Positions 19,668 through 44,342 of a stretch of 47,179 nt of DNA are shown one piece after another. The stretch is from positions 1 to 47,179 of the forward strand of contig NZ_BLAE01000088.1 in assembly GCF_009687865.1 (NCBI RefSeq), given 5' to 3'. The notes below the pieces were generated by a model. The model was not told the DNA's origin. It did no database searches and saw only the letters and a program-made list of their open reading frames with translations. Source of the DNA: Acrocarpospora macrocephala (GTDB lineage: Bacteria > Actinomycetota > Actinomycetes > Streptosporangiales > Streptosporangiaceae). Both the position numbers and the translations under genes were made by a program. How positions within the stretch are numbered: position 1 is the stretch's first letter; every line of letters starts with the position of its first letter.

Positions 19668-19691
19668 AATTAGTTTGCCGTCCATCCCAAC
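19668..19691 (-). promoter_or_regulatory. Operator-like motif upstream of GH31 operon (shared)
   Basis: On the plus strand it reads AATTAGTTTG, CCG, TCCATCC, CAAC. It matches the 24-bp motif at 44319-44342 at 20 of 24 positions. It lies 36-59 nt before the GH31 start, where a promoter or repressor site is expected. On the minus strand the sequence ACTAATTC could be a -10-like element. The conserved long match at two sugar loci suggests one regulator binds both. Confidence 0.6.
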
Positions 19692-19828
19692 AAACGTCAA
19701 CGCTGTGACATGGCCCACCTTCCGGGTCAGGCGAGCTTGACCACAGCCAAGCCCACCCCAAGCCCTTGCCCGATTTATCCCGCTATGTGGTAACTTGAGA
19801 ACTTAGCCGGAGCAAAGCGGGAAATGAG

Positions 19829-20026
19829 ATGTCCAAATTCGTGCACGTTCTGCCAACTGACGACGTCATCGCCCACGAGGGCAGCCCGGACTGCGTCTGC
19901 GGCCCCTACACCGAATCGATAGAGCTACGCGGCGCCATGGCCGGCCAGGGCCCCGTCGCCGTCCTCTACCGCCACTACGCGGTCATCCCCTGCCGTGACT
20001 GGGAAGCGTCCCCGGAAATCATGTGA
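19829..20026 (+). CDS. Small conserved hypothetical protein
   Basis: A 65-aa protein starting at ATG 19829, preceded by AGCGGGAAATGAG and, further up, an AT-richer stretch (TATGTGGTAACT at 19782-19793) that may be its promoter. The core H-V-L-P-T-D-D-V-I-A-H and D-C-V-C-G-P, then Y-R-H-Y-A-V-I-P, looks like a conserved actinobacterial small protein found alone. Function is unknown. It stands between the GH31 operon and the methyltransferase with no clear link to either. Confidence 0.7.
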   Translation: MSKFVHVLPTDDVIAHEGSPDCVCGPYTESIELRGAMAGQGPVAVLYRHYAVIPCRDWEASPEIM

Positions 20027-20046
20027 AATGTCGGGAACCGCTCGGA

Positions 20047-20736
20047 TCATGATGTCCACCCGGACGACATGGACGAGGGACCCGTCTCAAGGGCGGCCTG
20101 GTTGTTCCGGTAGACGGAGACCGCGAAGGGACGTACGACGTTCGCTTCGACTCGTTCGCTGATCTTCGAGAACGTCTGGTCGCTGTCGGTGAACCCGTGC
20201 AGCAGCTCAGCCTCCGGCCAGGGATGCACCAGGACCAGGACGCCGCTGGGCGCGGTCAACGAACGCAGCCGCGCCGAGGCACGGCGGAGCCGGTCGTGCC
20301 GCCCGAGGTAGTAAAGAGTCTCCGCGCAGAACACGAGATCGAACCGAGCGTGCTCCTCATGCTCGAGAATGTCGGCCCGCGCGAACCGCACCCGCGAGCG
20401 GTACCTCTCAGTACGCCGTCGCGCGCGTTCCAGGGCCCGGCCGGAGATGTCGATTCCGGTGATCTCCGCCGCCGGATGGGCCTGTGCGAGAAGTTCGGTG
20501 AAAACACCTTCGCTGCAGCCCACTTCCAGCATCCGGGGGTAGGCGCCAGCCGACACCTGGTCGAGGGTGGCCAGGTACTTGTGGTGTTCGGAAGAGTCCG
20601 TGGCGAGCGACCACGGATCAGGGCGTCGGTGCCACCAGTCGAAGTACCTGCGCAGCAACGCTCCCTGGACACCGGGGGCGAGGAGCGAGAACGTCTTGAA
20701 GAAGGCGCGATGCAGCTGATCTGGAATGCCGGTCAC
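20047..20736 (-). CDS. SAM-dependent methyltransferase (NodS-like)
   Basis: A 229-aa class I methyltransferase. Motif I is L-E-V-G-C-S-E-G (about residues 69-76), followed by an acidic end of strand beta2 (I-T-G-I-D-I-S) and V-F-C-A-E-T-L-Y-Y-L in the motif IV region. The N-terminal D-P-W-S-L-A-T-D-S-S-E-H-H-K-Y and C-A-E-T-L-Y-Y resemble NodS-type N-methyltransferases, but the substrate here is unknown. ATG 20736 lies 34 nt after the response-regulator stop on the same strand, so it may be co-transcribed with the two-component system. Confidence 0.87.
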   Translation of the reverse strand: MTGIPDQLHRAFFKTFSLLAPGVQGALLRRYFDWWHRRPDPWSLATDSSEHHKYLATLDQVSAGAYPRMLEVGCSEGVFTELLAQAHPAAEITGIDISGRALERARRRTERYRSRVRFARADILEHEEHARFDLVFCAETLYYLGRHDRLRRASARLRSLTAPSGVLVLVHPWPEAELLHGFTDSDQTFSKISERVEANVVRPFAVSVYRNNQAALETGPSSMSSGWTS

Positions 20737-20770
20737 ACAACCGGAACCTACGAGCCGGCCCTACGGGAGG

Positions 20771-29173: not shown

Positions 29174-30580
29174 ATGCTCACCAGGTTGGAGATCCAGGGC
29201 TTCAAGAACCTGCTCGATCTGCAGGTGGACTTCGGTCCGTTCACGTGCATCGCGGGTGCGAACGGGGTGGGCAAGTCGAACGTCTTCGACGCGATCGAAC
29301 TGCTCTCCCATCTCGCCTCGGACCCGCTGGTGGAGGCCTCACAGCGGGTGCGGGGAACGCGCGGTGGCGATCCCCGGGACCTATTCTGGGATGGCTACCG
29401 CGATCACCAACGGCAGATCTCCCTCGCCGCGGAAATGATCGTACCTGATGAGGTTGAAGACGATCTCGGTGCACCGGCGCTCCCAACGACCACGTTCCTC
29501 CGCTACGAGGTGGTTCTCGGTTATGCCGTACCCGAGGGAGAGAGCAGCGTTGGCCGTCTGACCCTCCTTCGGGAGGAGTTGCGCCACATCAACCGCGGTG
29601 ACGCTCCAAAGCACCTGCGCTTCCCGCACAGCCCAAAACATTTCCGGAACGCGGTGGTACAGGGCCAACGGCGCGGCGGTGCCTACCTCTCCACCGAGCA
29701 GCGAGACAACGGCACGATCATCAACGTCCACGGGGACGGGGGGAGCCGTGGCAAGCCACTGCCCCGCGCCGCCGGCCGCGCGGGCCGGACGGTGTTGAGC
29801 ACGATCACCACCAACGACTATCCGACCATCCTCGCCGCACGCCGGGAGATGCAGAGCTGGCATCGCCTCGCCCTGGAGCCATCAGCGCTTCGCGCCCCTG
29901 ACGGGTTCACCGACCCGCGGACACTCGGAGTGGATGGTCGGCACCTGGCCGCCACGCTCTATCGCATCGCCAACGAGAGCATCGCCGCCGACCCGGAGGC
30001 GGTCTACGCCCAGGTGGCCGACCGGCTCTCCGATCTCGCTGGCGTCAGCGTCGAGAGTTTGCGCGTCGAACCCGATCAGATCCGTGAGGTGTTCACGCTT
30101 TTCCTCCGGGAGCGCAACGGGCTTCAACTGCCTGCTCGTGCCCTCTCCGAGGGCACACTCCGCTTCCTCGCGCTGTGTGTGCTCTTGGAAGACCCGACGT
30201 TCACCGGCCTCATTTGCATGGAGGAACCGGAGAACGGCATCCACCCGGCGAACCTCCAGGCGATAGTCAGGCTCGTCGAAGACCTCGCGGTTGACCCGCA
30301 GGAGGCACCCGGTCCCGACAACCCCTTCCGTCAGGTGATCATCAACACCCATGCGCCTGGTGTCGTCCAGCTGTGCAAAGAAGACGACCTTCTTCTCGCG
30401 GAAACCCGCCCTCGCCGGACGGACGAAGGAACCGTGACCGACGCGCTCTCTCTGCTTCCCTACCAGCGCTCCTGGCGCGCGGTCAGCCAGCCGCTGACTT
30501 TCTCCAAAGCCGACGTGGTCGCCTATCTCGCTGGTCCCCCGGGGGCCAACCTGCGTATTCCCGGGGAGATGGCCGGATGA
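29174..30580 (+). CDS. AAA family ATPase (ABC/SMC-type head, AAA_15/AAA_21)
   Basis: A 468-aa cytoplasmic ATPase. Walker A G-A-N-G-V-G-K-S is at 28-35, the ABC-type signature A-L-S-E-G-T-L-R-F-L-A at 323-333, Walker B L-I-C-M-E-E-P-E-N-G-I-H at 346-357, and the H-loop I-N-T-H-A-P with H393. These are the marks of SMC/RecF-like heads found in OLD-type, AbiL-, PARIS- and Septu-related defence ATPases. It lacks a long coiled coil and carries no TOPRIM domain itself. The next gene encodes a DUF4276 TOPRIM-like protein overlapping its stop (ATGA), the usual two-gene arrangement of such systems. Inferred role: nucleotide-driven sensor that holds or activates its partner. Confidence 0.9.
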   Translation: MLTRLEIQGFKNLLDLQVDFGPFTCIAGANGVGKSNVFDAIELLSHLASDPLVEASQRVRGTRGGDPRDLFWDGYRDHQRQISLAAEMIVPDEVEDDLGAPALPTTTFLRYEVVLGYAVPEGESSVGRLTLLREELRHINRGDAPKHLRFPHSPKHFRNAVVQGQRRGGAYLSTEQRDNGTIINVHGDGGSRGKPLPRAAGRAGRTVLSTITTNDYPTILAARREMQSWHRLALEPSALRAPDGFTDPRTLGVDGRHLAATLYRIANESIAADPEAVYAQVADRLSDLAGVSVESLRVEPDQIREVFTLFLRERNGLQLPARALSEGTLRFLALCVLLEDPTFTGLICMEEPENGIHPANLQAIVRLVEDLAVDPQEAPGPDNPFRQVIINTHAPGVVQLCKEDDLLLAETRPRRTDEGTVTDALSLLPYQRSWRAVSQPLTFSKADVVAYLAGPPGANLRIPGEMAG

Positions 30581-31230
30581 GCGGGCGCGTCTACACGGGA
30601 TTCTTCGTCGGGGAAGGCACCTCCGACCTCCCGCTCGCCGACATCGTCGAAACCCTCTTCATCGACCGTGGCACGCAGGTGCGGCTCAGCAAGCCGGATT
30701 TCGAATCTTTGAAGGGAGTGCGCAGGGACGTCCGTTCGAAGGTGTCGGCCAGCATCCAGCTGGTCGGCGGCCCAGTCGACCTAGTCGTTGTCCACCGGGA
30801 TGCCGACAACGCCGGAGCGGACACCCGCCGCAACGAGATTGAGGAAGCCGTGCATGCGGCCGGGCATTGCTCATCAATCGTTCCGGTGATTCCCGTCCGG
30901 ATGACCGAAGCATGGCTCCTTCTGGATGAGCAGTCCATCAGGACCGTGGCGGGGAATCCCAAGGGAAAGATGAACCTGGGACTTCCTGCTTCGAACCGCG
31001 TGGAGCGCGAACCGGACCCCAAGCAGCTCCTCAAGGAATGCTTATTGAAGGCTTCCGATGCGACTGGGAGGCGGCGGGAGCGAGCTGCCAACCGGTTCTA
31101 TGAACATCGGAGACACCTCCTGCAACGGCTCGATTGTGCGGGACCCGTCACCTCGTTGCCGAGCTGGAAGCGGCTTGTCGCCGACATCGAGTCGGTTATC
31201 GACCAATGGAACGGCAGGGAAGATCTGTAA
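30577..31230 (+). CDS. DUF4276 family TOPRIM-like protein
   Basis: A 217-aa protein. F-F-V-G-E-G-T-S-D with E13 followed by D-L-V-V-V-H-R-D-A-D-N-A-G with D75 and D77 matches the E...DxD arrangement of the TOPRIM fold in DUF4276 proteins. V-I-P-V-R-M-T-E-A-W-L-L at about 96-107 is a further family signature. TOPRIM proteins of this type are suspected nucleases or primase-like effectors. ATG 30577 overlaps the stop of the ATPase gene by 4 bp, so both are made together. Pairing with an AAA head resembles AbiL and PARIS (AriA/AriB) in layout; their TOPRIM families differ, so this is analogy rather than identity. Confidence 0.87.
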   Translation: MSGRVYTGFFVGEGTSDLPLADIVETLFIDRGTQVRLSKPDFESLKGVRRDVRSKVSASIQLVGGPVDLVVVHRDADNAGADTRRNEIEEAVHAAGHCSSIVPVIPVRMTEAWLLLDEQSIRTVAGNPKGKMNLGLPASNRVEREPDPKQLLKECLLKASDATGRRRERAANRFYEHRRHLLQRLDCAGPVTSLPSWKRLVADIESVIDQWNGREDL

Positions 31231-31478: not shown

Positions 31479-32990
31479 CTACTGGTGGGTGAACTGGGTC
31501 AGGGCCGGGAGGGCTCGGTCGTTGAAGTCGAAGAGGGCTTGGTTTTCCCATTCGTTGCCGGAGGAGGGGTTGGTGGGGTCCCAGCCGTTGCCGGGGACGG
31601 CGGTCCAGGTGGGTTCCCAGTAGATGGCGCCGAGGCCGCGGGCGTTGGGGATGGCTTGGACCAGGGACATGATGTCGCGGAGCATCGCGGACTGGCCGGC
31701 CGGTGAGGATGGGTAGCCGGTCACGGGTGTGGCGGAGTTCACCATGTTGCCGAAGGCGTCGTCGGAGCCTGGCGTGAACGGGTAAGCGGTTTCGGCCAGG
31801 AGGACGGGTTTGCCGTAGCGGGTGGCGATGTCGTCGATGTTGGTCTGGAAGGCGGCGAAGGTGCCGTGCCAGTACGGGTAGTAGGAGACGCCGATCACGT
31901 CGTACAGGACCCCGTTGGCAGCGGCGCTGTCGAACCACCAGCGGTAGAGGCCGTTGTCGCCGCCGTTGGCCAGGTGCAGGACGACCTTCGTCGAGCTGGA
32001 GACCGCCTTCACCGCGTCGTAGCCGGAGCGGATGAGCTGGGCGAGTTGGGCGAAGCGGGAGCTGCGGCCGTCTTCCCAGAGCATGCCGTCGTTGATCTCG
32101 TTGCCGACCTGGACCATGTCGGCGGTGGTGCCCTGGGATTTGAGGGCGTTGAGGACGTCGAAGGTGTGGTTGTAAACGGCGGTTCTGAGGTTGGCGAACG
32201 AGAGGGACGTCCAAGCGGCTGGTTTGTACTGTTTGCCGGGGTCGGCCCAGCTGTCGGAATAGTGGAAGTCGATCAGCAGCCCGAGGCCGAGAGCTTTTGC
32301 GCGGGTGGCCATGGCCAGGACCCTGGCTTTGTTGTTGTAGCCGTCGGCGGGGTTCACCCAGACCTTGAGGCGGGCGTAGTTGACGCCGTTGTCGCGCAGG
32401 ATCGTCAGCGCGTCCCCGCGCACTCCGGCGGCGGTGAAGTATCGCCCGCCGAACGCCTCCGACTTGGGCAGGCTGGACACGTCCGCACCCTTGATCGACA
32501 GAGTGGCCGAGCCGGAGGCGAAGCTCACGTCGTCGAAGTTGGCCCAGCCTCCGGCGGCGGCGGAGCTGTTGAGGCTGATCGTGCACTGGGAGTTCGTCAC
32601 GGTCTGGGTGACCGCGATCCGCAGCCAGTCCCCTGACACGGGAACGTAGGTGCGGCGTTCGGCGCCGCCGCAATTCTTGAGCGAGATCCAGCTCTGGCTG
32701 GCCGTACCGGCGCGAACCCAGGCGCGGAGGGTGTACGTGCCGTTGACGATGCCGGACAGAAACTGCCAGGTCTCCACCGTGTACGCCGAGGACGACCAGT
32801 GCGAGAGCCGGTAGCTGCCGGAGTGCCCGCCCGCTTCGTGGAAGTCGGCGGCGGCCGTGCCGGTGGTGCTCCAGCCGGAGAGGTTGACGGTTTCGAAGCC
32901 CGTGTTGGTGAGCGTGGTCGCCGCCTGGGCGGGCGACGGGAGCAGCAGGGTGACGCCCAGCAGCGCGAGAACGGCCAGAATCCTGCTCAT
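31479..32990 (-). CDS. Secreted GH53 endo-beta-1,4-galactanase with carbohydrate-binding domain
   Basis: A 503-aa enzyme that cuts beta-1,4-galactan side chains of pectin. Signal peptide 1-23 (ends A-Q-A). Residues about 24-160 form a beta-sandwich (T-G-F-E-T, later W-A-N-F-D-D-V-S-F), a carbohydrate-binding module such as the CBM4/9 type or the galactan-binding CBM61 known from GH53 enzymes. The GH53 domain (about 165-503) has the acid/base E298 in V-G-N-E-I-N and the nucleophile E400 in L-L-A-E-T-A-Y-P, plus R-L-K-V-W-V-N-P-A-D-G-Y. ATG 32990 overlaps the TGA of the upstream GH53 gene. A partial copy of this gene lies at 25832-26120. Confidence 0.94.
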   Translation of the reverse strand: MSRILAVLALLGVTLLLPSPAQAATTLTNTGFETVNLSGWSTTGTAAADFHEAGGHSGSYRLSHWSSSAYTVETWQFLSGIVNGTYTLRAWVRAGTASQSWISLKNCGGAERRTYVPVSGDWLRIAVTQTVTNSQCTISLNSSAAAGGWANFDDVSFASGSATLSIKGADVSSLPKSEAFGGRYFTAAGVRGDALTILRDNGVNYARLKVWVNPADGYNNKARVLAMATRAKALGLGLLIDFHYSDSWADPGKQYKPAAWTSLSFANLRTAVYNHTFDVLNALKSQGTTADMVQVGNEINDGMLWEDGRSSRFAQLAQLIRSGYDAVKAVSSSTKVVLHLANGGDNGLYRWWFDSAAANGVLYDVIGVSYYPYWHGTFAAFQTNIDDIATRYGKPVLLAETAYPFTPGSDDAFGNMVNSATPVTGYPSSPAGQSAMLRDIMSLVQAIPNARGLGAIYWEPTWTAVPGNGWDPTNPSSGNEWENQALFDFNDRALPALTQFTHQ

Positions 32991-34093
32991 CGGCCCTGTC
33001 CGAACTCGCGCATGGCGGGGAGCGGACGGTTGGTGAAGTCGAAGAGCGCCTGGTTCTCCCAGCCGTTGCCGGAGGTGGGATCGGCCGGATCCCAGCCGTT
33101 GCCGGGCACGCCGGTCCACGTGGCCTCCCAGTAGAAGACGCCGAGACCCAGATTGTTCGGGACGGCCCGCATGATCTCGGTGATCTTTCGAAGGAAAGCG
33201 GTCTGACCCTCAGGGGTGGCCGGATAGCCGGGATACGGCTCAGCGGACAGGATGATGTTCTCCCAGCCGTCCTTGTCGGCGGTGGTGAACGGGTAGGCGG
33301 TTTCGGCGAGGATCAACGGTTTGCCGTAGCGAACGGCGATGTCATTGAGGTTGGCCTGGAACGCCTCGAACGTGCCGTGCCAGTACGGGTAGTAGGACAG
33401 GCCGATCACGTCGTAGCGGATGCCATTGGCGGCGGCGTTGTCGAACCACCAGCGGTAGAGGCCGTTGTCGCCGCCATTGGCGAGGTGCAGGACAACGCGG
33501 GTGCGGGAGGAGACGGCTTTCACGGCGTCGTAGCCCGCGTTGAGCAGCCCGGCCATGCCCGGCCAGTTGTCATACCGCCCGTCCGGCCAGAGCAGGCCGC
33601 CATTCAGCTCGTTGCCGATCTGCACCAGGTCAGCGGTGGTGCCCTGGCGGCGCAGCCCGTTGAGCACGTCGTAGGTGTGGTCGTACACGGCCTGCTTGAG
33701 CTGGTCGTAGGGCAAAGCCGCCCAAGCGGCGGGTTTGTTCTGCTTGCCCGGATCTGCCCAGCTGTCGGAGTAGTGGAAGTCGACGAACAACTTCAGGCCC
33801 GCGGCTTTCGCGCGCCGGGCGATGGCCAGCACGTGGGCGCGGTCGTTGTAGCCGTCGGCCGGGTTGACCCACACCTTGAGGCGGATGTAGTTGAGCCCGG
33901 CTTTCTCCAGGATGCGCAGGGCGTCGCCGCGGCGGCCGTCGCGGTCGCGGTAGACACCGCCGTACGCCTCGGATTTGGCGAGGCTGGAGACGTCGGCGCC
34001 GCGGATGGGGAGCGGGCGGGGATGGGCGTGCGCGGGGGCGGCCAGGGTGAGGCCGAGTGCGACGCCGGTCAGCGCCGCCAGGAATCGTTTCAT
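32987..34093 (-). CDS. Secreted GH53 endo-beta-1,4-galactanase
   Basis: A 368-aa single-domain arabinogalactan endo-beta-1,4-galactanase. Signal peptide 1-23 (ends A-H-A), then directly the GH53 barrel (I-R-G-A-D-V-S-S-L). Acid/base E162 lies in I-G-N-E-L-N-G-G and nucleophile E264 in I-L-A-E-T-A-Y-P. It is a paralogue of the following gene without the binding module; the pair probably divides soluble and polymer-bound substrate. The start lies 11 nt after the GH42 stop, with GGAGGATC as ribosome binding site. Products should be galactobiose to galactotetraose for the divergent ABC system. Confidence 0.94.
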   Translation of the reverse strand: MKRFLAALTGVALGLTLAAPAHAHPRPLPIRGADVSSLAKSEAYGGVYRDRDGRRGDALRILEKAGLNYIRLKVWVNPADGYNDRAHVLAIARRAKAAGLKLFVDFHYSDSWADPGKQNKPAAWAALPYDQLKQAVYDHTYDVLNGLRRQGTTADLVQIGNELNGGLLWPDGRYDNWPGMAGLLNAGYDAVKAVSSRTRVVLHLANGGDNGLYRWWFDNAAANGIRYDVIGLSYYPYWHGTFEAFQANLNDIAVRYGKPLILAETAYPFTTADKDGWENIILSAEPYPGYPATPEGQTAFLRKITEIMRAVPNNLGLGVFYWEATWTGVPGNGWDPADPTSGNGWENQALFDFTNRPLPAMREFGQGR

Positions 34094-34104
34094 TGATCCT
34101 CCGG

Positions 34105-36075
34105 TCAGGAGAGGCGGACGACGGTGACCGCGCCTGCGGGCACCTCGCCGTTGAACGGCGTTCGCGCGAGTACGTCGGTTCCGGTGACACCGGGGACGCT
34201 CGCCGCGACGTCAGCGTGGTTGATCAGGAAGACATGGCGGCCACGCTGGACGTATTCGAGGGTGTCGGGGAGGTCGTGGGGGCGGGAGACGGCAGCCCGG
34301 TCGAGGATCGGGGTGAGCAGGTCGCGGAGGCCGTCGAGGGGGGCGGTGGCGAGGTACCAGGCGGTGCCCGCGCCGAGTTCGTTGACGGTGGCGGCGGGGT
34401 GGCCCGCGTCGGGGCCGGTGGTGAACGTCTGGACGGAGCGGGCCCCGGTCAGGCGGACCCGCTCCGACCAGACGCGTGCGGTGGCCCCGCCGGAGAGGGT
34501 GACGGTCTCGTGCTCGCGGAGCGGGTGGAACTCCTCGATGGACAGGCCGAGCAGGTCGCGCAGCACGCCGGGGTGGGCGCCCGGATGCACGGTGTCGTGC
34601 TCGTTGACGATGCCGGAAAAATACGACACGACGAGGTTCCCGCCGGACTCCACGTAGCGCTGCAGGTTCTTGGCGGAGGCCTCGGTGAGCAGGTACGAGG
34701 ACGGCGCAACCACCACCCGATATCCCGAAATATCGGCGGAAGGGTGGACGAAGTCGGTGGTGACGTGGGTGCGCCACAGCGTTTCGTAGAAAGCGCTGAT
34801 TCTGTCCAGGAAGGCGAGGTCGCCGGACGGGCGCCACTCCAGTTCGAGCGCCCAGTAGGACTCCCAGTCCCACACGATCGCCACCTCGGCGGCGACCCTA
34901 CTGCCCCGGACCTCGGCGAGTTCCCGCAGGTCGGAGCCGAGCGCGACGACGTCACGCCAGATCTGGGAGTCGGTGCCCGCGTGCGGGACCATCGCCGAGT
35001 GGAACTTCTCGGCGCCGAACCTGGACGCCCGCCACTGGAAGAACATGACGGCGTCGGAGCCCCTGGCGACGTGGGCGAGGCTGTTGCGCCGCATCTCCCC
35101 CGGGCGTTTGGCGATGCCGCGCGGCTGCCAGCTGACGGCCCCGGTCGAATGCTCCATGATCATCCAAGGCCCGCCGCCGGCCAGGGAACGGCTCAGATCG
35201 GCTGACATCGCCAGGTGGATGTGGTTGTCGCGCCGCTCGCCGTCCAGGTAGTGGTCGTTGGCGATCACGTCCAGCTCGGGCGCCCACCGCCACAGATCCA
35301 TGGACTTGCAGTTCACGGTTCCGGCGAAGTTGGTGGTGACCGGTTTTCTGGTGCCGCGCAGCAGGTCGCGCTGCAGGCGGTAGTGCGCCAGATGGGCGTC
35401 GTTGGAGAAACGCGCGTAATCGAGGCGTTGGGCGGGGTTGACCACGGTGTGGCTCCAGCGGGGGGCGTCGATCTCGTCCCAGTCGCCGTACCGCTGGCCC
35501 CAGAAGGGGGTGCCCCAGGCGTCGTTGAGGGCGTCGAGGCTTTCATGCGCGAGGCGCAGCCAGTCCCGCCAGGCGGTGACGCTGGCCGCGCAGTAACACT
35601 CGCCGAGCGGCGCGCCGTACTCGTTGTGCACGTGCCACATCACGACCGCCGGGTGGTCTCCGTACCGGTCGGCGAGGCGGGTGACCAGTGCGGACGTGGC
35701 CGCGAGGAAGGCGGGATGGCTGGAGCAGGCGCTCTCCCTGCTGCCGAGCCCGATCCGGACCCCCTCCCGCGTCACCGGCACCGAATCCGGATATTTCCGG
35801 GAAAACCACGGCGGTGGGGTGGCGGTTGGTGTGCCCAGGTCGACCGCGATGCCCGCCGCGTGCAGCCGATCGATGATCTCGTCGAGCCAGCCGAACTCAT
35901 ACCGCCCCTCGGCGGGTTCCAGCAGGACCCACGCGAAGATTCCCAGGCTGACCAGGGTCACCCCGGCCTCGCGCATCAGGCGGACATCCTCCTCCTGAAC
36001 CTCGCGCGGCCACTGCTCGGGGTAGTAGTCGCCGCCGTACGCGATGCCCTCCGGCAGAGCGGGATATCCAGGCAC
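34105..36075 (-). CDS. GH42 beta-galactosidase (galactan locus)
   Basis: A 656-aa cytoplasmic enzyme. The GH42 barrel opens with G-G-D-Y-Y-P-E-Q-W (14-22). Acid/base E152 is in H-V-H-N-E-Y-G and nucleophile E308 in M-I-M-E-H-S. Cysteines C160 and C162 near the active-site entrance (G-E-C-Y-C) recall the metal cluster of many GH42 proteins. A beta-galactosidase trimerisation domain and a small C-terminal domain follow. It should split galactooligosaccharides imported by the divergent operon. GTG 36075 follows GGGGGG. It is the first gene of the GH42-GH53-GH53 operon; a LacI palindrome lies 25 nt upstream. Confidence 0.94.
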   Translation of the reverse strand: MPGYPALPEGIAYGGDYYPEQWPREVQEEDVRLMREAGVTLVSLGIFAWVLLEPAEGRYEFGWLDEIIDRLHAAGIAVDLGTPTATPPPWFSRKYPDSVPVTREGVRIGLGSRESACSSHPAFLAATSALVTRLADRYGDHPAVVMWHVHNEYGAPLGECYCAASVTAWRDWLRLAHESLDALNDAWGTPFWGQRYGDWDEIDAPRWSHTVVNPAQRLDYARFSNDAHLAHYRLQRDLLRGTRKPVTTNFAGTVNCKSMDLWRWAPELDVIANDHYLDGERRDNHIHLAMSADLSRSLAGGGPWMIMEHSTGAVSWQPRGIAKRPGEMRRNSLAHVARGSDAVMFFQWRASRFGAEKFHSAMVPHAGTDSQIWRDVVALGSDLRELAEVRGSRVAAEVAIVWDWESYWALELEWRPSGDLAFLDRISAFYETLWRTHVTTDFVHPSADISGYRVVVAPSSYLLTEASAKNLQRYVESGGNLVVSYFSGIVNEHDTVHPGAHPGVLRDLLGLSIEEFHPLREHETVTLSGGATARVWSERVRLTGARSVQTFTTGPDAGHPAATVNELGAGTAWYLATAPLDGLRDLLTPILDRAAVSRPHDLPDTLEYVQRGRHVFLINHADVAASVPGVTGTDVLARTPFNGEVPAGAVTVVRLS

Positions 36076-36099
36076 AAGCCCCCCAAGCGTGAATCATTT

Positions 36100-36115
36100 C
36101 TGTGAACGTGCACAG
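36100..36115. promoter_or_regulatory. LacI-type operator for GH42-GH53 operon
   Basis: CTGTGAACGTGCACAG, a palindrome with one mismatched pair and the CG centre typical of LacI-family sites. It lies just upstream of the GH42 start on the minus strand. Its centre is 102 bp from that of the second operator, about ten helical turns, so looping by one repressor tetramer or two dimers is possible. Confidence 0.85.
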
Positions 36116-36201
36116 TAATGCACGACCCCCAGAAGACTCCAGATCCCGCGAGTTAACGAGAACGTAACGGGCATTGACAGCCAGATGGGACCCCTCGCAC
36201 T

Positions 36202-36217
36202 CTGTGAACGTTCACAG
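36202..36217. promoter_or_regulatory. LacI-type operator for ABC-lacI operon
   Basis: CTGTGAACGTTCACAG, a perfect 16-bp palindrome, 20 nt upstream of the binding-protein ATG. A TTGACA at 36174-36179 followed, 18 nt later, by CACTCT is a plausible promoter whose -10 region abuts this operator, so binding would block it. The regulator is probably the LacI protein encoded at the end of this operon. Confidence 0.88.
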
Positions 36218-36237
36218 ACTTCCCAGCGGAGGCACCT

Positions 36238-37539
36238 ATGCGTACCAAACGCCTGGCCATAGCTCTCGCCACGATGCTGGCCGCCGGATGCGGCGGCGCG
36301 GCGGAGACACCCGCGGCGGCGCCCGCCACGTCGGCCCCCGCAGGCCCGGTATCCCTCACCTACTGGACCTGGGCCCCCAACATGGACAAGATCGCCGAAG
36401 TCTGGAACCAGGCGAATCCGGACATCAAGGTCACCGTCAGCAAGCAGGCGGGCGGCGACGACGCGGCCGCCAAGTTCCTCACCGCCGCCAAGGCCGGCAA
36501 CGCCCCCGACCTGGTGCAGGCCGAATACCAGCACCTGCCGTCGTTCATCGCCGCCGACGCGGTCGCCGACATCGCTGCCGAGGCCGCCGCCGTCAAGCCC
36601 GAGTTCAGCGCGGGCCTCTGGGGCCTGGTCACCCTCGGCACCGAGAGCGTCTACGCGATCCCGCAGGACAGCGGCCCGATGATGCTCTACTACCGCAAGG
36701 ACCTCTTCGAGAAGTACGGCATCGGCGTCCCGAAGACCTGGGACGAATACGCCGAAGCCGCCAGGACCGTCCACAAGGCCGACCCGAAGGTCTACCTGGG
36801 CAGCTTCTCCAGCAAGGATCCCGGCTGGTTCGCCGGGCTCGCCCAGCAGGCGGGCGCGCAGTGGTGGTCGATCTCCGGGGACGCGTGGAAGGTCGGCATC
36901 AACGACGCCGCCACCACGAAGGTCGCCGACTTCTGGGGCGGCCTGGTCCAGGAGGGCGTGATCGACGACATGCCGTACTTCACCCCGGAGTGGAACAAGG
37001 CGCTCAACGACGGCACCCAGCTGAGCTGGCCGTCGGCCGTCTGGGGGCCCGGCGTGCTGGAGAGCAACGCGCCCAAGGGTAAGGGCAAGTGGGGCATCGC
37101 GCCGCTGCCGCAGTGGAACGCCGGGGAGAACTTCAGCGGCTTCTGGGGCGGCTCGTCGACCGCGGTGTCGGCGGGGTCCAAGAACCGGGCTGCCGCGGTC
37201 AAGTTCGCGACCTGGCTGAACACCGATCCGCAGGGGATCGATCTGCTGGTCAAGGAGGCGTTCGTGTATCCGGCCTCCGGCAAGGGGCAGGCGGCGCTGG
37301 GCGCTCCTCCGGCGTACTTCGCGGAGAGCCAGCCGGACTTCTGGCAGCAGGCCGCGACCATCGGCACGTCGGCGCGCGGGTTCACCTTCGGGCCGAATGT
37401 GGGCGTCACGTACAACGCGTACAAGGATGCCTTCGACAAGGCGTTGCAGGACAAGTCCCCGTTCAGCGCCTCGGTCGGGACCATGCAGGACACGACCGTG
37501 GCGGACATGCAGAAGTCCGGCTTCACGCTGGCGCAGTAG
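36238..37539 (+). CDS. Sugar-binding lipoprotein (galactooligosaccharide uptake)
   Basis: A 433-aa CUT1 solute-binding protein. The signal peptide ends in the lipobox L-A-A-G-C. After an Ala/Pro linker the mature fold starts with V-S-L-T-Y-W-T-W-A-P. The ligand cleft is rich in Trp (G-A-Q-W-W-S-I-S-G; F-W-G-G-S-S-T). ATG 36238 is preceded by GGAGG. It is divergent from the galactanase/GH42 operon and shares its LacI operators, so the ligand is very likely beta-1,4-galactooligosaccharides. The next gene starts directly after the stop. The layout resembles ganS of Bacillus, though order and sequence are not close enough to use that name. Confidence 0.93.
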   Translation: MRTKRLAIALATMLAAGCGGAAETPAAAPATSAPAGPVSLTYWTWAPNMDKIAEVWNQANPDIKVTVSKQAGGDDAAAKFLTAAKAGNAPDLVQAEYQHLPSFIAADAVADIAAEAAAVKPEFSAGLWGLVTLGTESVYAIPQDSGPMMLYYRKDLFEKYGIGVPKTWDEYAEAARTVHKADPKVYLGSFSSKDPGWFAGLAQQAGAQWWSISGDAWKVGINDAATTKVADFWGGLVQEGVIDDMPYFTPEWNKALNDGTQLSWPSAVWGPGVLESNAPKGKGKWGIAPLPQWNAGENFSGFWGGSSTAVSAGSKNRAAAVKFATWLNTDPQGIDLLVKEAFVYPASGKGQAALGAPPAYFAESQPDFWQQAATIGTSARGFTFGPNVGVTYNAYKDAFDKALQDKSPFSASVGTMQDTTVADMQKSGFTLAQ

Positions 37540-38430
37540 ATGCACCGGAGACACGGCGGCGCTCGCCTGAGCGCCGCCCCCTACCTGTTCCTGGCTCCGG
37601 CGATCGTGCTGTTCATCCTGTTCCTCGCGGTGCCGATCGGCTACACCGTGCATCTGGCGCTGCGGCGGACCCGGGTGTCCGGGCTCGGCCTGGGCAAGGG
37701 GTCGCGGCGGGAGGTGTTCGTCGGGCTCGACAACCTGCGCGCGGCGGTCACGGACGACGAGCTCTGGGCCGGCTGGCTGCGGGTGCTCGGCTACGGCACG
37801 CTCGTGCTGGTCGTCATGCTCGGGCTGGCCCTGCTGTTCGCGCTGCTGCTGGATTCGGCGCATGTGCGGCTGGCGCGGTTCTCCCGGATCGCGATCTTCC
37901 TGCCGTACGCGGTGCCGGGCGTGGTGGCGTCCTTGTTGTGGGGGTTCCTCTACCTGCCGAGCCTGACGCCGATCGGGGGGATCGATTTCCTGAGCGCTTC
38001 GGCGGTGACGTACTCGATGGCGAACGTGGCCGTCTGGGGTGGGACCGGATTCAACATGCTCGTGCTCTACACCAACCTGCGGGCCATCCCGCGCAGCTAC
38101 TACGAGGCGGCGCGCATGGACGGCGCGTCCGAGCTGGCCATCGCGCTCCGGGTGAAGATCCCGATCCTGGTTCCGGCGATCATCCTGACCACGGTGTTCT
38201 CCATCATCGCCACCATTCAGGTGTTCACCGAGCCGACCACGCTGCGGCCGCTGACCAACACGATCAGCTCGACCTGGAGCCCGTTGATGAAGGTGTATCG
38301 GGACGCGTTCGTGACCGGTGACCTGTATTCGGCGGCGGCGACGTCGCTGGTGATCGCGGCGGTGTCGCTGGTGTTGTCGTTCGGGTTCCTGCGGGTGGTG
38401 CGCGGGCGCGCGTTCGGGGAGGGCCGGTGA
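37540..38430 (+). CDS. Sugar ABC transporter permease (MalF type)
   Basis: A 296-aa CUT1 permease with six membrane helices and the EAA loop Y-Y-E-A-A-R-M-D-G-A-S-E-L. The ATG at 37540 follows the stop of the binding-protein gene without a gap, so translation is coupled. Basic N-terminus R-R-H-G-G-A-R-L. It forms the transmembrane pore with the next gene product. As in the first operon, no ATPase is encoded here. Confidence 0.93.
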   Translation: MHRRHGGARLSAAPYLFLAPAIVLFILFLAVPIGYTVHLALRRTRVSGLGLGKGSRREVFVGLDNLRAAVTDDELWAGWLRVLGYGTLVLVVMLGLALLFALLLDSAHVRLARFSRIAIFLPYAVPGVVASLLWGFLYLPSLTPIGGIDFLSASAVTYSMANVAVWGGTGFNMLVLYTNLRAIPRSYYEAARMDGASELAIALRVKIPILVPAIILTTVFSIIATIQVFTEPTTLRPLTNTISSTWSPLMKVYRDAFVTGDLYSAAATSLVIAAVSLVLSFGFLRVVRGRAFGEGR

Positions 38431-39263
38431 ACCGGCGGCCGGTGGGGGCGCTGCCCACGGGGTTGCTGGTGCTGGGGGCGATCTACTGCCTGCTGCCGGT
38501 GAGCTGGGTGCTGATCTCGGCGAGCAAGTCTCCCGGTGAGCTGTTCACGCTGGGGACGCTGACGCCGGGGAGCGGGCTGCTGGAGAACGTGCGGGAGCTC
38601 AACGCGTACCGGGATGGGGTGTTCTGGCGGTGGATGCTGAACAGCGTCGTGTACGCCGGAGGCGGCGCGTTGCTGTCCACGCTGGTGTCGGCGGTGTCCG
38701 GCTTCGCCCTGGCGAAATATCGGTTTCCGGGGCGGAATCTCATCTTCAATGTGCTGATCGGCGGGATCCTGGTGCCGTCGGTGGTGCTGGCGGTGCCGCA
38801 GTACCTGCTCTTCTCCAAGATCGGGATGGCGGACACCTACTGGGCGGTCCTGCTGCCGCAGATCCTGCATCCCTACAGCATCTATCTGGCCCGGGTGTAC
38901 GCGAGCGCGGCCGTGCCCGACTCGCTGCTGGAGGCCGGGCGGATCGACGGCGCCTCGGAGCGGCGGCTGCTCGGGCGGGTCGCGCTGCCGCTGATGGTGC
39001 CCGGCATGGTGACGATCTTCCTGTTCCAGTTCGTGGCGATCTGGAATAACTTCCTGCTGCCGTTCCTCATGCTGGGCGACGACGGCAAGTTCCCGCTGAC
39101 CGTCGGGCTCTACTCGCTGCTCGCCGCCGGGGCCAACCAGCCCTCGCTGTACAACCTGATCATCACCGGCGCGCTGTTGTCGATCATTCCGTTGATCGCG
39201 CTGTTCCTGACCATGCAGCGCTACTGGCGTACGGACCTGTCCGGCGGAGCCCTCAAGGGCTAG
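38427..39263 (+). CDS. Sugar ABC transporter permease (MalG type)
   Basis: A 278-aa CUT1 permease. The EAA loop is L-E-A-G-R-I-D-G-A-S-E-R, with Gly instead of the third-position Ala. Six hydrophobic segments are visible. GTG 38427 overlaps the previous stop (GTGA), and its own TAG is followed 14 nt later by the lacI start. Together with the MalF-type partner and the lipoprotein it imports the products of the two secreted galactanases. Confidence 0.93.
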   Translation: MNRRPVGALPTGLLVLGAIYCLLPVSWVLISASKSPGELFTLGTLTPGSGLLENVRELNAYRDGVFWRWMLNSVVYAGGGALLSTLVSAVSGFALAKYRFPGRNLIFNVLIGGILVPSVVLAVPQYLLFSKIGMADTYWAVLLPQILHPYSIYLARVYASAAVPDSLLEAGRIDGASERRLLGRVALPLMVPGMVTIFLFQFVAIWNNFLLPFLMLGDDGKFPLTVGLYSLLAAGANQPSLYNLIITGALLSIIPLIALFLTMQRYWRTDLSGGALKG

Positions 39264-39277
39264 TGGAGAATGCCAGT

Positions 39278-40276
39278 GTGAAGAGGCCGACAATCCACGA
39301 CGTCGCGGCGGCGGCGGGCGTCTCGCGGGGGACGGTCTCGCGCGTGCTCAACGGGGACCGCTACGTGAGCACCGCCGCCCGCCTGGCGACCGAGCGCGCG
39401 ATCGCCGAGACCGGGTATGTGGTGAACCTCAACGCCCGCAACCTGGTGACCCAGCGGTCGGGCTCGGTGGTGATGGTGCTCTCCGAGCCGCACGAGAAGA
39501 TCTTCGAAGACCCGAATGACAGCACCGCGATCCGGACCGCGATCCGGCGGCTCGCCGAGCGCGACCTGTCCCTGGTGATGATGATCGCCGGCGACGCCGG
39601 GGACCGGGAGCGGGTGCTGCGGTATGTGAAGGGCGGCCACGCGGACGGCGTGCTGCTCATGTCCACGCACGCGGGAGATCCGCTGGTGGACGCGCTGGAC
39701 GGGGCGCGCATCCCGGCCGTGTCGTTCGGGGCCGTGATCGGGCGGGAGAACGTGATCCCGTACGCGGCGTGCGACGAGCGCGGCGGCGCCCAGCAGATGA
39801 CGCGCTACCTCGTCGAGCAGGGCCGGAAGAAGATCGCGATGATCACCGGGCCGATGGACACGCCCGGGGGGATCCAGCGGCTGGAGGGGTTCGCGGACGT
39901 GCTCGGGCGCAAGGCGTCCAAGAAGCTCATCGAGCACGGCGACTGGACCCGGCTGAGCGGGGAGAGCGCGATGGCACGCCTGTTGGAGCGCTCCCCTGAT
40001 CTCGACGCGGTTTTCGCGGCCTCGGATGTGATGGCGTCCGGAGCGCTGTCGACGCTCCGGGCGGCGGGGCGGCGCGTGCCGGACGATGTGGCGCTGGGCG
40101 GTTTCGACGACTCCGCGGTGGCGATGTCCACCCATCCGGCGCTGACCACGATCCGCCAGCCGCTGGCGGAGATCGCCGAAGAGACGGTGCGGATCCTGCT
40201 GGACCTGATCGACGGCGCGGAGCATGTGCCGTCAGTGACCGTTCCCACCCGGCTGATCGTCCGCGATTCCGCTTAG
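39278..40276 (+). CDS. LacI-family repressor of the galactan locus
   Basis: A 332-aa LacI/GalR regulator. The N-terminal HTH (T-I-H-D-V-A-A-A-A-G-V-S-R-G-T-V-S-R-V-L-N-G) is followed by a periplasmic-binding-like effector domain (G-G-F-D-D-S-A-V-A near the end, conserved in the family). GTG 39278 is preferred over GTG 39263 because GGAG sits 9 nt upstream and the HTH begins at residue 2. It is the last gene of the ABC operon and very likely binds the palindromes at 36100 and 36202, repressing both arms until galactose or a galactooligosaccharide binds. The last 45 bp overlap the convergent membrane-protein gene. Confidence 0.93.
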   Translation: MKRPTIHDVAAAAGVSRGTVSRVLNGDRYVSTAARLATERAIAETGYVVNLNARNLVTQRSGSVVMVLSEPHEKIFEDPNDSTAIRTAIRRLAERDLSLVMMIAGDAGDRERVLRYVKGGHADGVLLMSTHAGDPLVDALDGARIPAVSFGAVIGRENVIPYAACDERGGAQQMTRYLVEQGRKKIAMITGPMDTPGGIQRLEGFADVLGRKASKKLIEHGDWTRLSGESAMARLLERSPDLDAVFAASDVMASGALSTLRAAGRRVPDDVALGGFDDSAVAMSTHPALTTIRQPLAEIAEETVRILLDLIDGAEHVPSVTVPTRLIVRDSA

Positions 40277-41699: not shown

Positions 41700-41711
41700 C
41701 TATCTAGGTAG
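41700..41711. promoter_or_regulatory. Possible PadR operator
   Basis: CTATCTAGGTAG is an almost perfect 12-bp dyad (one mismatched pair), 11 nt upstream of the PadR start and overlapping the likely -10 region (TAGAGT on the minus strand at about 41697-41702). Position and symmetry fit an autoregulatory site. Confidence 0.4.
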
Positions 41712-41746
41712 ACCCAATCGGTCGAGAGCAATCTCCAACTCCCGCC

Positions 41747-41908
41747 ACACCTCCAGATCCCGCCACACCTTGTGATGCCGACGCACCTTGTGATGCCCGA
41801 GCACCTCGTGACGGCCGCACCCCTCGTGACGGCCGCACCCCTCGTGACGCCCGTGCACCTTGTGACGGCCCATTCACCACATGACGCCCAGTACACCTCT
41901 TGGCGCCG
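41747..41908. repeat. 18-bp minisatellite, 9 units
   Basis: Nine head-to-tail 18-bp units, such as GCACCTTGTGATGCCCGA and ACCCCTCGTGACGGCCGC. The central six are close copies and the outer three degenerate. It lies between the GH95 3' end and the PadR promoter. Because 18 is a multiple of three, a minus-strand frame through it reads V-T-R-G-A-A-type hexapeptides, but no start or homology supports a gene. The intervals 41712-41746 and 41909-41990 show nothing else. Confidence 0.85.
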
Positions 41909-41990
41909 GTACGGCGAGAACCGCCACCTGCGTGAACGGCGCCGGATAACGGCGAGCAACCCGGGAGTCACTCGTCCTGTTCGGTGCTCG

Positions 41991-44315
41991 CTAGAAGCGA
42001 AGGTCGATAGGGGTTCCAGCGGGGAGGTGGGCTTCTTGGCCGTTGATCGTGGCGGTGATGGTCTCGCGGGCGGTCAGGGTGGCTTCGATTCGCTTGGGGG
42101 ACCAGGCCAGGCGGTCGAGTCCGATTCCGGCTCTGGCCAGGAGGCCTGTGGCCTCGCCGGATGGCCAGGGGCAGGCGGGGAGGAGGTCGATGTGGCCCTC
42201 GTGGGTGGAGCGGAGGAGCATGGCGGCGATCAAGGCGGGGGTTCCGCCGCAGATGTCGACGTTGAAAATGGCGTCGCGGTTGTGGGTGGAGACCAGGTTG
42301 GGGCGCCAGTAGCGGGTGCTGAGCAGGGTCAATGCCTCATCGGCCTCGGCGGTCATGCCCAGGCCGGCGGCGGCGAGTCCGATCTGGACCAAGCCGAAGG
42401 CCATCTCATCGGACTCGGCGCTTCGCCACCATTCCAGCCGTTTCTGTACGGCTAGTGCGCCCGCTTCGGCGAGGTGGGAATCGGGTTCGTACCAGAAGGG
42501 GTAGAGGTGTGAGGCATGGCGGTGGGCGTGGTTGTCCTTGATGTCCCACGCCCATTCGGCGAGTTCGCCGGTGGGGGCGATGCGGTAGGCGGGTAACCGC
42601 CGCGCCAACGTCTCCCAGCGGGGGTGGGGATCGACCCGGCGGAGATTGGTGAGCAGGTCGCGTACGGCGGCGAGGTCCATGGTGGCGTTGATCGCGGCTT
42701 GGGCGGTTTCGCCGGGCGGGGCGTTCTCCGGGGAGTACGAAGGGACGAAGTTGCCCTGGGGATCAAGGAAGTCCTCGTAGAACGTGGCGGCTTCGGTCAT
42801 GAAGGGGAGGGCTCGGGTGTGCAGGAAGTGGGTGTCGAGGGTGTGGCTGTAGTAGTCGAAGTAGAGGCGGGAGAGCCAGGCGGCGCCTGCCGTCCAGAAG
42901 GTCTGGCACCAGCGGGGAGTGAAGTGGTTCTGGCGGCCGTGAGTGGAGAGGTGGACGGGGGTGAGGATGCCGCGGCAGCCGTACAGGCGGTGGGCGTTGG
43001 CGCGGAAGTCGGGGAGGAAGGCGTCGAACAGGTCGAATACGGGGAGCAGGAGTTCGGGGGTTCCGGTGCTGAGCAGGGCGGCGACGGCGGATTGCAGGTT
43101 GCCGTCGATGGTGTAGCCGGACTGCCAGGCGGGGTGGCTGGTGCCGGACCAGACGCCTTGCAGGGTGGGCGGGAGGTCCCCAACGCTGGAGATGATCGCG
43201 TAGCGGCCTGCGGCGTAGAGCGTTTCGATGAGTTCTTCACCGCCCTGGGCGAGGGTTCTTTCCGCGTTTACGGTGATCTGCCGGAGGCCGGGGCGGTCGA
43301 AAAGGTCGCCGTGGGCTTCTTCCGCCCTCGCGGTGGCTTTCAGGTGACGGGAGCGGTCGAAGAGATCGCCGTGGGCTTCTTCCGCCCTCGCGGTGGCTTT
43401 CAGGTGACGGGAGCGGTCGAAGAGATCGCCGTCGGCTTCTTCCGCCCTCGCGATGGTTTGCGGAGGACGAGAGCGGTCGGTCTCTTCTGCCCTCGCGGTG
43501 GCTTGGTGGGGGTTGAGTTGGAGGTGGGAGCGGTGGAAAAGATCGCCGTGGATGGGTGCGTGGCGGGTTAGGAGTTCGTCGAAGCGTGCGGGCGGGGGTG
43601 GGGTGCTGGTGGAAAGCGGGTCTGTGGCCGTGGTGGTTCTGGCGGTGATCGTTACTGAGGTGGCGCTGCGGATCTCCAGGCGGGTGCCGGTGGTCCAGAG
43701 GTGGCCGCCTTGTGCGGTGACGTGGCATTCGACCTGGTAAATGGGGGTGTTCAGGCGCAGGGTGAAGGCGCCGGTGATGGTGGGGGTGGATTCGATGGGG
43801 GCGTCTTCGGGTGGGGAGAGGGTGAGGATGCCGCTGACGTCGCCGGTGAGGCGGATCGCGATCACGTCGTCGGGGCGGGAGGCGAAGACCTCCTGGGTGA
43901 GGCTCGGCCAGCCTTGCGTGACCAGGCCCGACGTGAAATCGCATTCCCGGAAATACGGTGAATCGCTGGTGAGTGGGTGGAATGTGAGGGTGGCTGAGGG
44001 GACCAAGGGGTCGATCTGGCGGAGTTCCGTGTAGTCCGGGTTCTCCTGGGTGGCCAGGGCGGTTACTCGGTCGGCCGCTTGCTGGTACGCGCCGCCGTAC
44101 AGGAGGGAACGGAGTTCGGGCAGGATGCGCGCGGTGTTTGGGGGGTCGAGTGGGGGCACGAGCGGGAGGAACAGGCGTTCGTGGGAGAACGTGATGGCCA
44201 GGGCGTGCGGGCCGCCGTACACGAGGGCGCCCTGACGACCGTTTCCGGTGATCAGGGCATGTTCCCAGTCGTCGGCGGGGGTGGCCGAGGTGAAGCCGTT
44301 GACACCGGAGATCAT
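41991..44315 (-). CDS. GH95 alpha-L-fucosidase-like protein
   Basis: A 774-aa cytoplasmic protein, no signal peptide. The N-terminus (D-D-W-E-H-A-L-I-T-G-N-G-R-Q-G-A-L-V-Y-G-G) and the S-P-E-N motif in V-P-S-Y-S-P-E-N-A-P, with its conserved Glu, mark GH95, the inverting alpha-1,2-L-fucosidases (some act on L-galactose). H-R-H-A-S-H-L-Y-P is the conserved His motif. The usual N-x-N-x-Q-M-N-Y-W active-site stretch reads I-D-G-N-L-Q-S-A here, so one catalytic-site Asn may be replaced and activity needs testing. The linker before the (alpha/alpha)6 barrel carries tandem repeats. ATG 44315 is preferred; it is 47 nt from the divergent GH42 start. Confidence 0.85.
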   Translation of the reverse strand: MISGVNGFTSATPADDWEHALITGNGRQGALVYGGPHALAITFSHERLFLPLVPPLDPPNTARILPELRSLLYGGAYQQAADRVTALATQENPDYTELRQIDPLVPSATLTFHPLTSDSPYFRECDFTSGLVTQGWPSLTQEVFASRPDDVIAIRLTGDVSGILTLSPPEDAPIESTPTITGAFTLRLNTPIYQVECHVTAQGGHLWTTGTRLEIRSATSVTITARTTTATDPLSTSTPPPPARFDELLTRHAPIHGDLFHRSHLQLNPHQATARAEETDRSRPPQTIARAEEADGDLFDRSRHLKATARAEEAHGDLFDRSRHLKATARAEEAHGDLFDRPGLRQITVNAERTLAQGGEELIETLYAAGRYAIISSVGDLPPTLQGVWSGTSHPAWQSGYTIDGNLQSAVAALLSTGTPELLLPVFDLFDAFLPDFRANAHRLYGCRGILTPVHLSTHGRQNHFTPRWCQTFWTAGAAWLSRLYFDYYSHTLDTHFLHTRALPFMTEAATFYEDFLDPQGNFVPSYSPENAPPGETAQAAINATMDLAAVRDLLTNLRRVDPHPRWETLARRLPAYRIAPTGELAEWAWDIKDNHAHRHASHLYPFWYEPDSHLAEAGALAVQKRLEWWRSAESDEMAFGLVQIGLAAAGLGMTAEADEALTLLSTRYWRPNLVSTHNRDAIFNVDICGGTPALIAAMLLRSTHEGHIDLLPACPWPSGEATGLLARAGIGLDRLAWSPKRIEATLTARETITATINGQEAHLPAGTPIDLRF
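43290..43500 (-). repeat. 60-bp in-frame tandem repeat within GH95 gene
   Basis: Bases 43321-43380 and 43381-43440 are identical at 59 of 60 positions; partial, more diverged copies flank them. Each unit encodes 20 residues of the type A-T-A-R-A-E-E-A-H-G-D-L-F-D-R-S-R-H-L-K. The unit copies the enzyme's own H-x-x-L-F-x-R-x-x-L linker motif (H-G-D-L-F-H-R-S-H-L further upstream in the protein), so it arose by recent tandem duplication of that segment. Confidence 0.9.
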
Positions 44316-44318
44316 GGC

Positions 44319-44342
44319 AATTAGTTTGACCTCCATCCTAAT
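44319..44342. promoter_or_regulatory. Operator-like motif between GH95 and GH42 (shared)
   Basis: Plus strand AATTAGTTTG, ACC, TCCATCC, TAAT: 20 of 24 positions match the motif upstream of the GH31 operon. Here it also contains a perfect outer dyad, ATTAG and CTAAT, spaced by 13 nt. It fills half of the 47-bp gap between two divergent genes, so one bound regulator could control both. On the minus strand it overlaps the GGAGG ribosome binding site of GH95. Confidence 0.65.

Follow-up and report, generated by a model that had tools for sequence, protein, structure and literature searches.

What connects two sets of glycoside hydrolase (GH) genes that lie almost 25 kb apart in the actinomycete Acrocarpospora macrocephala and share a 24-bp sequence at their promoters? 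The window analysed here, i.e. the whole stretch of 47,179 nucleotides at positions 1 to 47,179 of contig NZ_BLAE01000088.1, carries one copy of this sequence (operator 1) in front of an operon that begins with a GH31 gene and continues with genes for an ABC importer and a GH3 enzyme, and a second copy (operator 2) between divergent GH95 and GH42 genes. An earlier note on this DNA proposed that a single regulator, encoded elsewhere, coordinates both loci as a xyloglucan regulon. As set out below, it is likely that a ROK-family repressor, here called ROK-A, controls a xyloglucan-oligosaccharide regulon through the shared operator and that the two halves of this regulon were later split by insertions.

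A rare sequence shared by two loci

Both copies of the 24-mer are found where the earlier note had seen them, at 19668-19691 and 44319-44342. The first lies just before GH31, although the distance to the ATG (19632, minus strand) is 35 nt and not the 36 nt originally given, and the second indeed falls between the start codons of the divergent genes GH95 (ATG at 44315, minus strand) and GH42 (ATG at 44363, plus strand). At up to three mismatches, the window holds these two matches, compared with a maximum of 0 in 100 dinucleotide shuffles of it, and the same two sites are the only matches in the whole 12.1-Mb genome (reversed control, 0). Scattering of the motif over unrelated places had been named beforehand as the observation that would speak against a regulon; with two matches per 12.1 Mb, there is none. 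Each of the five Acrocarpospora genomes holds exactly two copies, always at the same genes, and a looser 21-base pattern likewise yields two matches only in A. macrocephala and two only in each of the other four genomes of the genus. The GH31 protein of the window shares 99% identity with its A. pleiomorpha counterpart.

An inverted repeat inside the GH31 promoter

While the 24-mers are present as described, the actual element at GH31 is a 25-bp inverted repeat at 19670-19694, laid out as TTAGTTTG-CCGTCCATC-CCAACAAA, in which both arms score 8/8 at a spacing of 9 nt. Reading the promoter from the sequence, this repeat occupies the 17-nt spacer and the -10 element downstream of a TTGACG box. 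Side-by-side comparison of 18 GH31 promoters, chosen from 80 named loci of relatives, showed TTGAC in all 18 and a conserved block of the form TTGAC[G/C]TTTGTTSG...CAAACTAA, the ends of which are the arms of a single inverted repeat with a 9-nt spacer. A consensus promoter scanner made no call at operator 1 or operator 2, and no LacI-type operator, i.e. an even palindrome with a central CG, was seen at either site.

The spacing deserves some care. A palindrome with a 5-nt spacer, TTAGTTTG-N5-CAAACTAA, recovers the GH31, GH95/GH42 and GH74 sites in 5/5 genus genomes, plus places without a conserved context, and occurs at 31 places in the five genomes versus 8 for the control; it was replaced by the 9-nt form, which is preferred because it better explains the conserved flank. 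Over 88 distinct sites, the right arm scores a mean of 7.2/8 at 9-nt spacing versus 5.5/8 at 5-nt spacing, a comparison that is biased because five of the eight right-arm positions fall inside the 24-mer used to select the sites. Outside this 24-mer lie three right-arm bases, WAA, and 58 of the 61 named Streptosporangiaceae loci have them.

Conservation across the Streptosporangiaceae

Across the family, 112 matches at up to three mismatches were found in 86 of 297 genomes and sorted by their distance to GH31 and ROK-A genes. Where upstream of GH31 is defined as within 200 nt (500 nt in genomes G089 and G061, in which the match starts inside the protein), 82 matches from 77 genomes fall in this class, in some cases with a divergent GH42 gene on the other side of the match. 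Four further matches lie upstream of ROK-A and 26 elsewhere. The latter comprise the five GH95/GH42 sites of the genus, 12 sites from other genera that precede GH42 or separate it from GH95, one at GH74, one at GH35, two at a xylose-isomerase-like gene, one near a lytic polysaccharide monooxygenase gene and three at seemingly unrelated genes, leaving one (G113) whose surroundings were not retrieved.

The expectation that the motif would be conserved before orthologues thus holds for the family matches as well as for all 61 Streptosporangiaceae loci among the 80 named GH31 loci; the other 19 we take, from their genus names, to belong to Micromonosporaceae. The 21-base core is present at up to two mismatches in 52 of the 61 loci and at up to four in all 61, and 59 of them hold it 30-40 nt before GH31; in 400 letter shuffles of the upstream regions, it never appeared with fewer than five mismatches. 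None of the 19 Micromonosporaceae loci has the core at up to two mismatches. The degenerate 25-mer TTWGTTKG-N9-CMAACWAA, which describes the inverted repeat itself, fits the 61 Streptosporangiaceae loci with 0 (41 loci), 1 (19 loci) or 2 mismatches (one locus), and at up to two mismatches it also precedes GH31 in 14 of the 19 Micromonosporaceae loci (L191-L214), despite their failing the core of the 24-mer.

ROK-A as the candidate regulator

For the single regulator encoded elsewhere there is now a strong candidate, on another contig than the window. All eight motif-bearing genomes picked have a ROK gene at a distance of 11-25 kb from the closest site, and these eight genes form one orthologous group. 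Its member in A. macrocephala, ROK-A (403 aa, G000:C43:42967-44175), is 77% identical to the protein of genome G042, whereas the other ROK proteins of A. macrocephala, which has 33 ROK matches in total, reach about 45% or less. ROK-A combines a ROK domain (Pfam, 5e-52 at 93-390) with a winged helix-turn-helix (HTH) region (MarR_2/HTH_IclR at 27-68), and its matches in the PDB include 1z05 (E 2e-41), Mlc (1e-35) and XylR 4ija (6e-15).

Co-occurrence was assessed in the 297 family genomes with cut-offs of E<=1e-110 for ROK-A and E<=1e-130 for a second ROK regulator, ROK-B, which served as a control. The GH31 orthologue gave 98 matches at its cut-off, of which two at 46-47% identity were excluded, leaving 96 genomes. 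ROK-A is present in 112 genomes, namely in 96/96 with GH31 and in 16/201 without, and 185 genomes have neither gene. Both genes share a contig in 89 of the 96 genomes at a distance of 5.6-42 kb (median 14.9 kb) and lie on different contigs in the other seven. ROK-B is not favoured as the regulator: it occurs in 230/297 genomes and is unmatched in at least three with GH31 (G043, G088 and G132).

The promoter of ROK-A itself provides a further line of evidence. When the two GH31 arms alone were united into one 25-mer pattern and this was run at up to two mismatches over the five genus genomes, it matched 24 places (reversed control, 14). The five matches without mismatch are all GH31 promoters, the five with one mismatch are all ROK-A promoters, one per genome, and the other 14, at two mismatches, are mixed and include the GH95/GH42 site of A. 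catenulata. Two sets of these two-mismatch places, TTAGTTTGTTTAATTGACATACATA or near (5/5 genomes) and TCTGTTGGACGTCCATCCCAACAAT or near (two), lie near a lipoprotein/esterase-like gene and inside a coding frame and are not counted as part of the regulon. The site is present, with 0-2 mismatches, in all 12 ROK-A promoters that were fetched, where its distance from the start is 75-180 nt, and 480 shuffles of ROK-A upstream regions gave a single match to the 25-mer at three mismatches and none lower. Among the 30 A. macrocephala ROK loci scanned, out of the 33 matches, ROK-A has the best site, at G000:C43:44308-44332, with one mismatch, and the next best have three.

These results also bear on the idea that what the two loci share is part of a conserved promoter, i.e. 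a -35/-10 pair with its spacer, instead of a repressor site. The repeat does cover the spacer and -10 of the GH31 promoter and adjoin the conserved TTGAC. Yet it is a long inverted repeat, found across Acrocarpospora at 0-1 mismatches only at GH31 and ROK-A promoters and standing 75-180 nt from the start of ROK-A in 12 of 12 promoters, which makes this idea very improbable, and a ROK operator is the reading followed here.

The second operator between GH95 and GH42

Operator 2 is the weaker of the two sites. The arrangement of two arms around a 9-nt spacer that is known from XylR-type operators is present at GH31 and absent from the GH95/GH42 site of the window. With only a single well-matching arm at this latter site, its control by ROK-A is less certain. 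The right arm is better at the site on the GH42 side in some other genera, e.g. CGAACAAA in G089.

Possible promoter elements overlap this site in both directions. A possible GH42 promoter, TTGACA-17-TAGTTT, shows the same spacing in G215 and G199, but not in G089. On the opposite strand, a possible GH95 -10 element, CAAACT, lies 7 nt before the ATG; the same 7-nt spacing is found before a GTG start in G215 and is absent in G059 and G045. Judged from the sequence, this placement would fit a leaderless mRNA. The GH95 match of A. corrugata is broken up, its three pieces spanning 1.4 kb (L039 ~8528-9955) and not 2.3 kb, indicating that the gene may be shortened; operator 2 is unchanged there.

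How firmly can the operators be assigned to ROK-A?

Several findings weigh against the assignment of the whole regulon to ROK-A. At operator 2, the left arm (8/8) and the TCCATCC centre are kept, but the right arm scores 3/8 at N9 and 6/8 at N5, and the site resembles that at the xylose-isomerase-like genes of two other genomes. The GH74 genes of A. macrocephala and its genus have a conserved palindrome before a TTGAC box with the 5-nt spacer only, three of the family matches (G008, G073 and G020) adjoin the seemingly unrelated genes, and the 14 two-mismatch places of the arm-union scan equal in number its whole reversed control. As for co-occurrence, 92 of the 96 GH31 genomes have ROK-A at 71% identity or more, while four have it at only 54-57%; both genes are clade-restricted and syntenic, which makes their co-occurrence partly phylogenetic; the 16 genomes with ROK-A and without GH31 imply that ROK-A has another job too; and the ROK groups compared across the 297 genomes were two, ROK-A and ROK-B. 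Two other ROK loci of A. macrocephala hold a three-mismatch site. Finally, an argument by elimination through the small genome G042 was dropped: six of its seven ROK genes tested have counterparts in A. macrocephala at 70-82% identity, so presence alone excludes no other ROK of this strain.

Much of this would also fit binding of the operator at GH31 or GH95/GH42 by another ROK paralogue, be it XylR-like or one of those about 45% identical, with ROK-A acting mainly at its own locus. ROK operators share arms, paralogue loci of the strain carry the three-mismatch site, and the sites in G248 and G263 resemble the one at GH95/GH42. We nevertheless consider a paralogue unlikely, given that, of the two groups followed through the family, only ROK-A is found in every GH31 genome and that its promoter is the sole one-mismatch match in each of the five genus genomes. 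The xylose-locus ROK can be judged more directly. In A. macrocephala, the ROK gene beside a xylose-isomerase-like gene (L082) is 39% identical to the ROK-A of G042, and ROK-A is not the XylR orthologue by position. This ROK gene, which is XylR-like by position and one of the six with a counterpart in G042, diverges from the xylose-isomerase-like gene, with a palindrome, TTAGTCCACAACGTAGACTAA, between them (L254:2840-2960, contig C84) that is nearly the same in G042. This palindrome differs from the operator, which speaks against the xylose-locus ROK acting at GH31.

Two observations on such genes may be recorded separately. In G248 and G263 (genus g4), a two-mismatch copy of the motif stands at the start of the xylose-isomerase-like gene (L120:8176-8199 and L121:7756-7779). 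At L069/L071 (C34:34174-36785 of A. macrocephala), two divergently arranged ROK paralogues with an identity of about 43-45% to the ROK-A of G042 share an operator-like TTAATTGATCGCCGAGACAAACGAA with 9-nt spacing.

The LacI gene of the window was considered as well and rejected as the regulator. Among the fetched regions from other genera, its locus was matched beside GH31 only in G054, and it has CG-centred palindromes of its own (see below).

Genes, probable substrate and proposed split of the system

The gene order given in the earlier note, GH31 - solute-binding protein - permease - permease - GH3 on one side and the GH95/GH42 pair on the other, is borne out by Pfam (Table 1).

Table 1. Features of the window discussed in the text
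Feature	Coordinates	Strand	Basis and remarks
Operator 1, 25-bp inverted repeat	19670..19694	-	Minus strand TTTGTTGG-N9-CAAACTAA; includes most of the 24-mer 19668-19691
-35-like TTGACG of the GH31 promoter	19695..19700	-	Read from sequence; 17 nt from -10-like CAAACT (19677-19672) inside the operator
Operator 2	44319..44342		Within the 47 nt separating GH95 from GH42; left arm and centre well kept, right arm weak
Possible GH42 promoter TTGACA-17-TAGTTT	44299..44327	+	-10 at 44322-44327 inside operator 2; sequence and relatives
Possible GH95 -10 CAAACT (44328-44323)	44316..44328	-	7 nt before ATG; sequence and relatives
GH31, YicI-like, first operon gene	17353..19632	-	Pfam, PDB; putative alpha-xylosidase
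ABC importer solute-binding protein	16048..17343	-	Pfam
ABC importer permease	15194..16054	-	Pfam
ABC importer permease	14385..15197	-	Pfam
GH3 with CBM6, signal-like N-terminus	11379..14357	-	Pfam, PDB
GH95	41991..44315	-	Pfam, PDB; putative alpha-L-fucosidase
GH42 beta-galactosidase	44363..46273	+	Pfam, PDB
Galactan locus: two GH53, GH42, solute-binding protein, two permeases, LacI	31479..40276		Inserted; probably outside the regulon

An alpha-xylosidase-like GH31 and an ABC importer thus stand under one operator, the combination taken as the mark of a xyloglucan-oligosaccharide regulon. YicI is the top PDB match of GH31, while GH3 matches beta-xylosidase and beta-glucosidase best, with isoprimeverose-producing enzymes ranking lower. 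That no endo-xyloglucanase is present, as the earlier note had it, is true of the window but not of the genome, which contains a GH74 gene elsewhere; all five genus genomes have GH74, at 61-62% identity to the GH74 of genome G054. In this latter genome, an operator with arms of 8/8 and 7/8 precedes the GH74 xyloglucanase gene (6p2o, E 5e-294), and in G220 one with arms of 8/8 and 8/8 precedes GH35; both sites fall within the longest listed frame, at its 5' end, yet before the likely signal-peptide start as judged by eye. In G215, the GH95/GH42 pair adjoins a gene for GH5 with CBM46. The assignment to xyloglucan draws on the enzyme families and on these GH74 and GH35 neighbours. GH42 enzymes often prefer other galactosides, and GH31 and GH95 have several specificities, which would suit a real regulon for a different fucosylated or galactosylated glycan. 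Such a substrate seems improbable in view of the best score of GH31 against YicI among PDB chains, the xyloglucanase and GH5-CBM46 neighbours in relatives and the presence of GH74 throughout the genus, and xyloglucan is the substrate assumed below.

That a once-joined system was interrupted by the galactan locus agrees with the arrangement in five genomes of other genera (G089, G016, G031, G201 and G169), where only 0.06-4.1 kb separate the two operators and nothing in between matches the galactan locus. In Acrocarpospora, the galactan locus lies between the operators, which are separated by 24.6 kb in the window and by 12.6-16.1 kb in the other four genomes. The two halves were probably adjacent in an ancestor, the galactan locus, plus further genes in this strain, having been inserted later. 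The divergent promoter region of the galactan locus contains two CG-centred palindromes, CTGTGAACGTGCACAG and TCTGTGAACGTTCACAGA, at 36100-36115 and 36201-36218, which are found in 5/5 genus genomes (one copy is imperfect in A. catenulata) and probably serve as operators for the LacI encoded at 39263-40276. The galactan locus can thus be expected to be under its own LacI and probably outside the regulon. The defence-like patch of the earlier note also has a basis: an AAA ATPase and a small partner at 29174-31230 correspond to HEC-01A/HEC-01B, a candidate defence pair in PADLOC (E 9e-103 and 4e-23). Two small proteins of the window have relatives in similar surroundings, one (3987-4232, 81 aa) in the vicinity of GH31 or ROK-A in several genera and the other (19829-20026, 65 aa) near GH31 in L036 and L055.

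At the ROK-A locus of A. macrocephala, genes for GH3, LacI and GH1 lie on one side and divergent permease genes on the other. The permeases are 27-31% identical to those of the window and stand behind a 568-aa protein without a Pfam match, which makes a second importer at this locus only putative.

A model for ROK-A action and its relation to known regulators

ROK proteins usually repress by occlusion, and repression is relieved when a sugar occupies the ROK domain. Whereas the operator sequence with its rarity, conservation and ROK-type geometry and its linkage and co-occurrence with ROK-A were observed directly, we infer binding, repression, inducer and substrate. A ROK-A dimer would sit on TTAGTTTG-N9-CMAACWAA, covering the spacer and -10 of the promoter of the GH31-importer-GH3 operon, and on the related weaker site, where the divergent genes GH95 and GH42 are likely to have their -10 elements; as the operators overlap promoter elements, RNA polymerase is proposed to be blocked. 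The ROK-A promoter, which carries the same operator, would be bound as well. Once a sugar derived from imported xyloglucan oligosaccharides binds to the ROK domain, the repressor would leave the DNA, and both import and the removal of fucose, galactose, xylose and glucose would be turned on.

The closest known parallel is the ROK protein XylR, which, according to passages in PMC12285236 and PMC2873477, controls xylose and xylan genes in Anaerocellum/Caldicellulosiruptor bescii and Firmicutes; the A. bescii operator TTAGTTTGTTTAATAAACAAACTAA is described as validated and used in fluorescence polarisation (PMC12285236). As far as these passages go, both systems have a ROK-type repressor and an operator made of a TTAGTTTG arm, a 9-nt spacer and a CAAACTAA arm, whereas the regulon of GH31, GH95, GH42 and importer genes and the conserved TCCATCC centre set the present system apart. 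In addition, ROK-A is nearer to 1z05 and Mlc than to XylR 4ija in the PDB. GloR of Thermotoga maritima, in a passage of PMC3750489, is predicted to regulate locally an importer of xyloglucan oligosaccharides that is accompanied by cel74 and fucAI; as proposed for ROK-A, it is tied to xyloglucan-oligosaccharide import, but it belongs to the LacI family and to another phylum. XygS/XygR of Ruminiclostridium cellulolyticum, as cited in a passage of PMC8579813, is a dedicated regulator of xyloglucan degradation and import, in this case a two-component activator as opposed to the one-component repressor proposed here. A ROK-type or actinobacterial xyloglucan regulator was not found in the open-access papers searched.

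A wider picture is offered tentatively, with the balance slightly against it. A dedicated ROK repressor might define a xyloglucan regulon throughout the Streptosporangiaceae, and perhaps into the Micromonosporaceae, using a XylR operator code; one operator might embed two divergent -10 elements, one of them giving a leaderless fucosidase mRNA; and ROK-A might also control a second glycan locus (putative importer, GH3 and GH1), joining the use of side chains and backbone. As candidates for the regulator, the operator and the regulon are now at hand for this large actinomycete family, the question of how such soil saprophytes sense a main hemicellulose becomes directly testable, and the 25-bp code could help to locate further xyloglucan enzymes in unannotated genomes.

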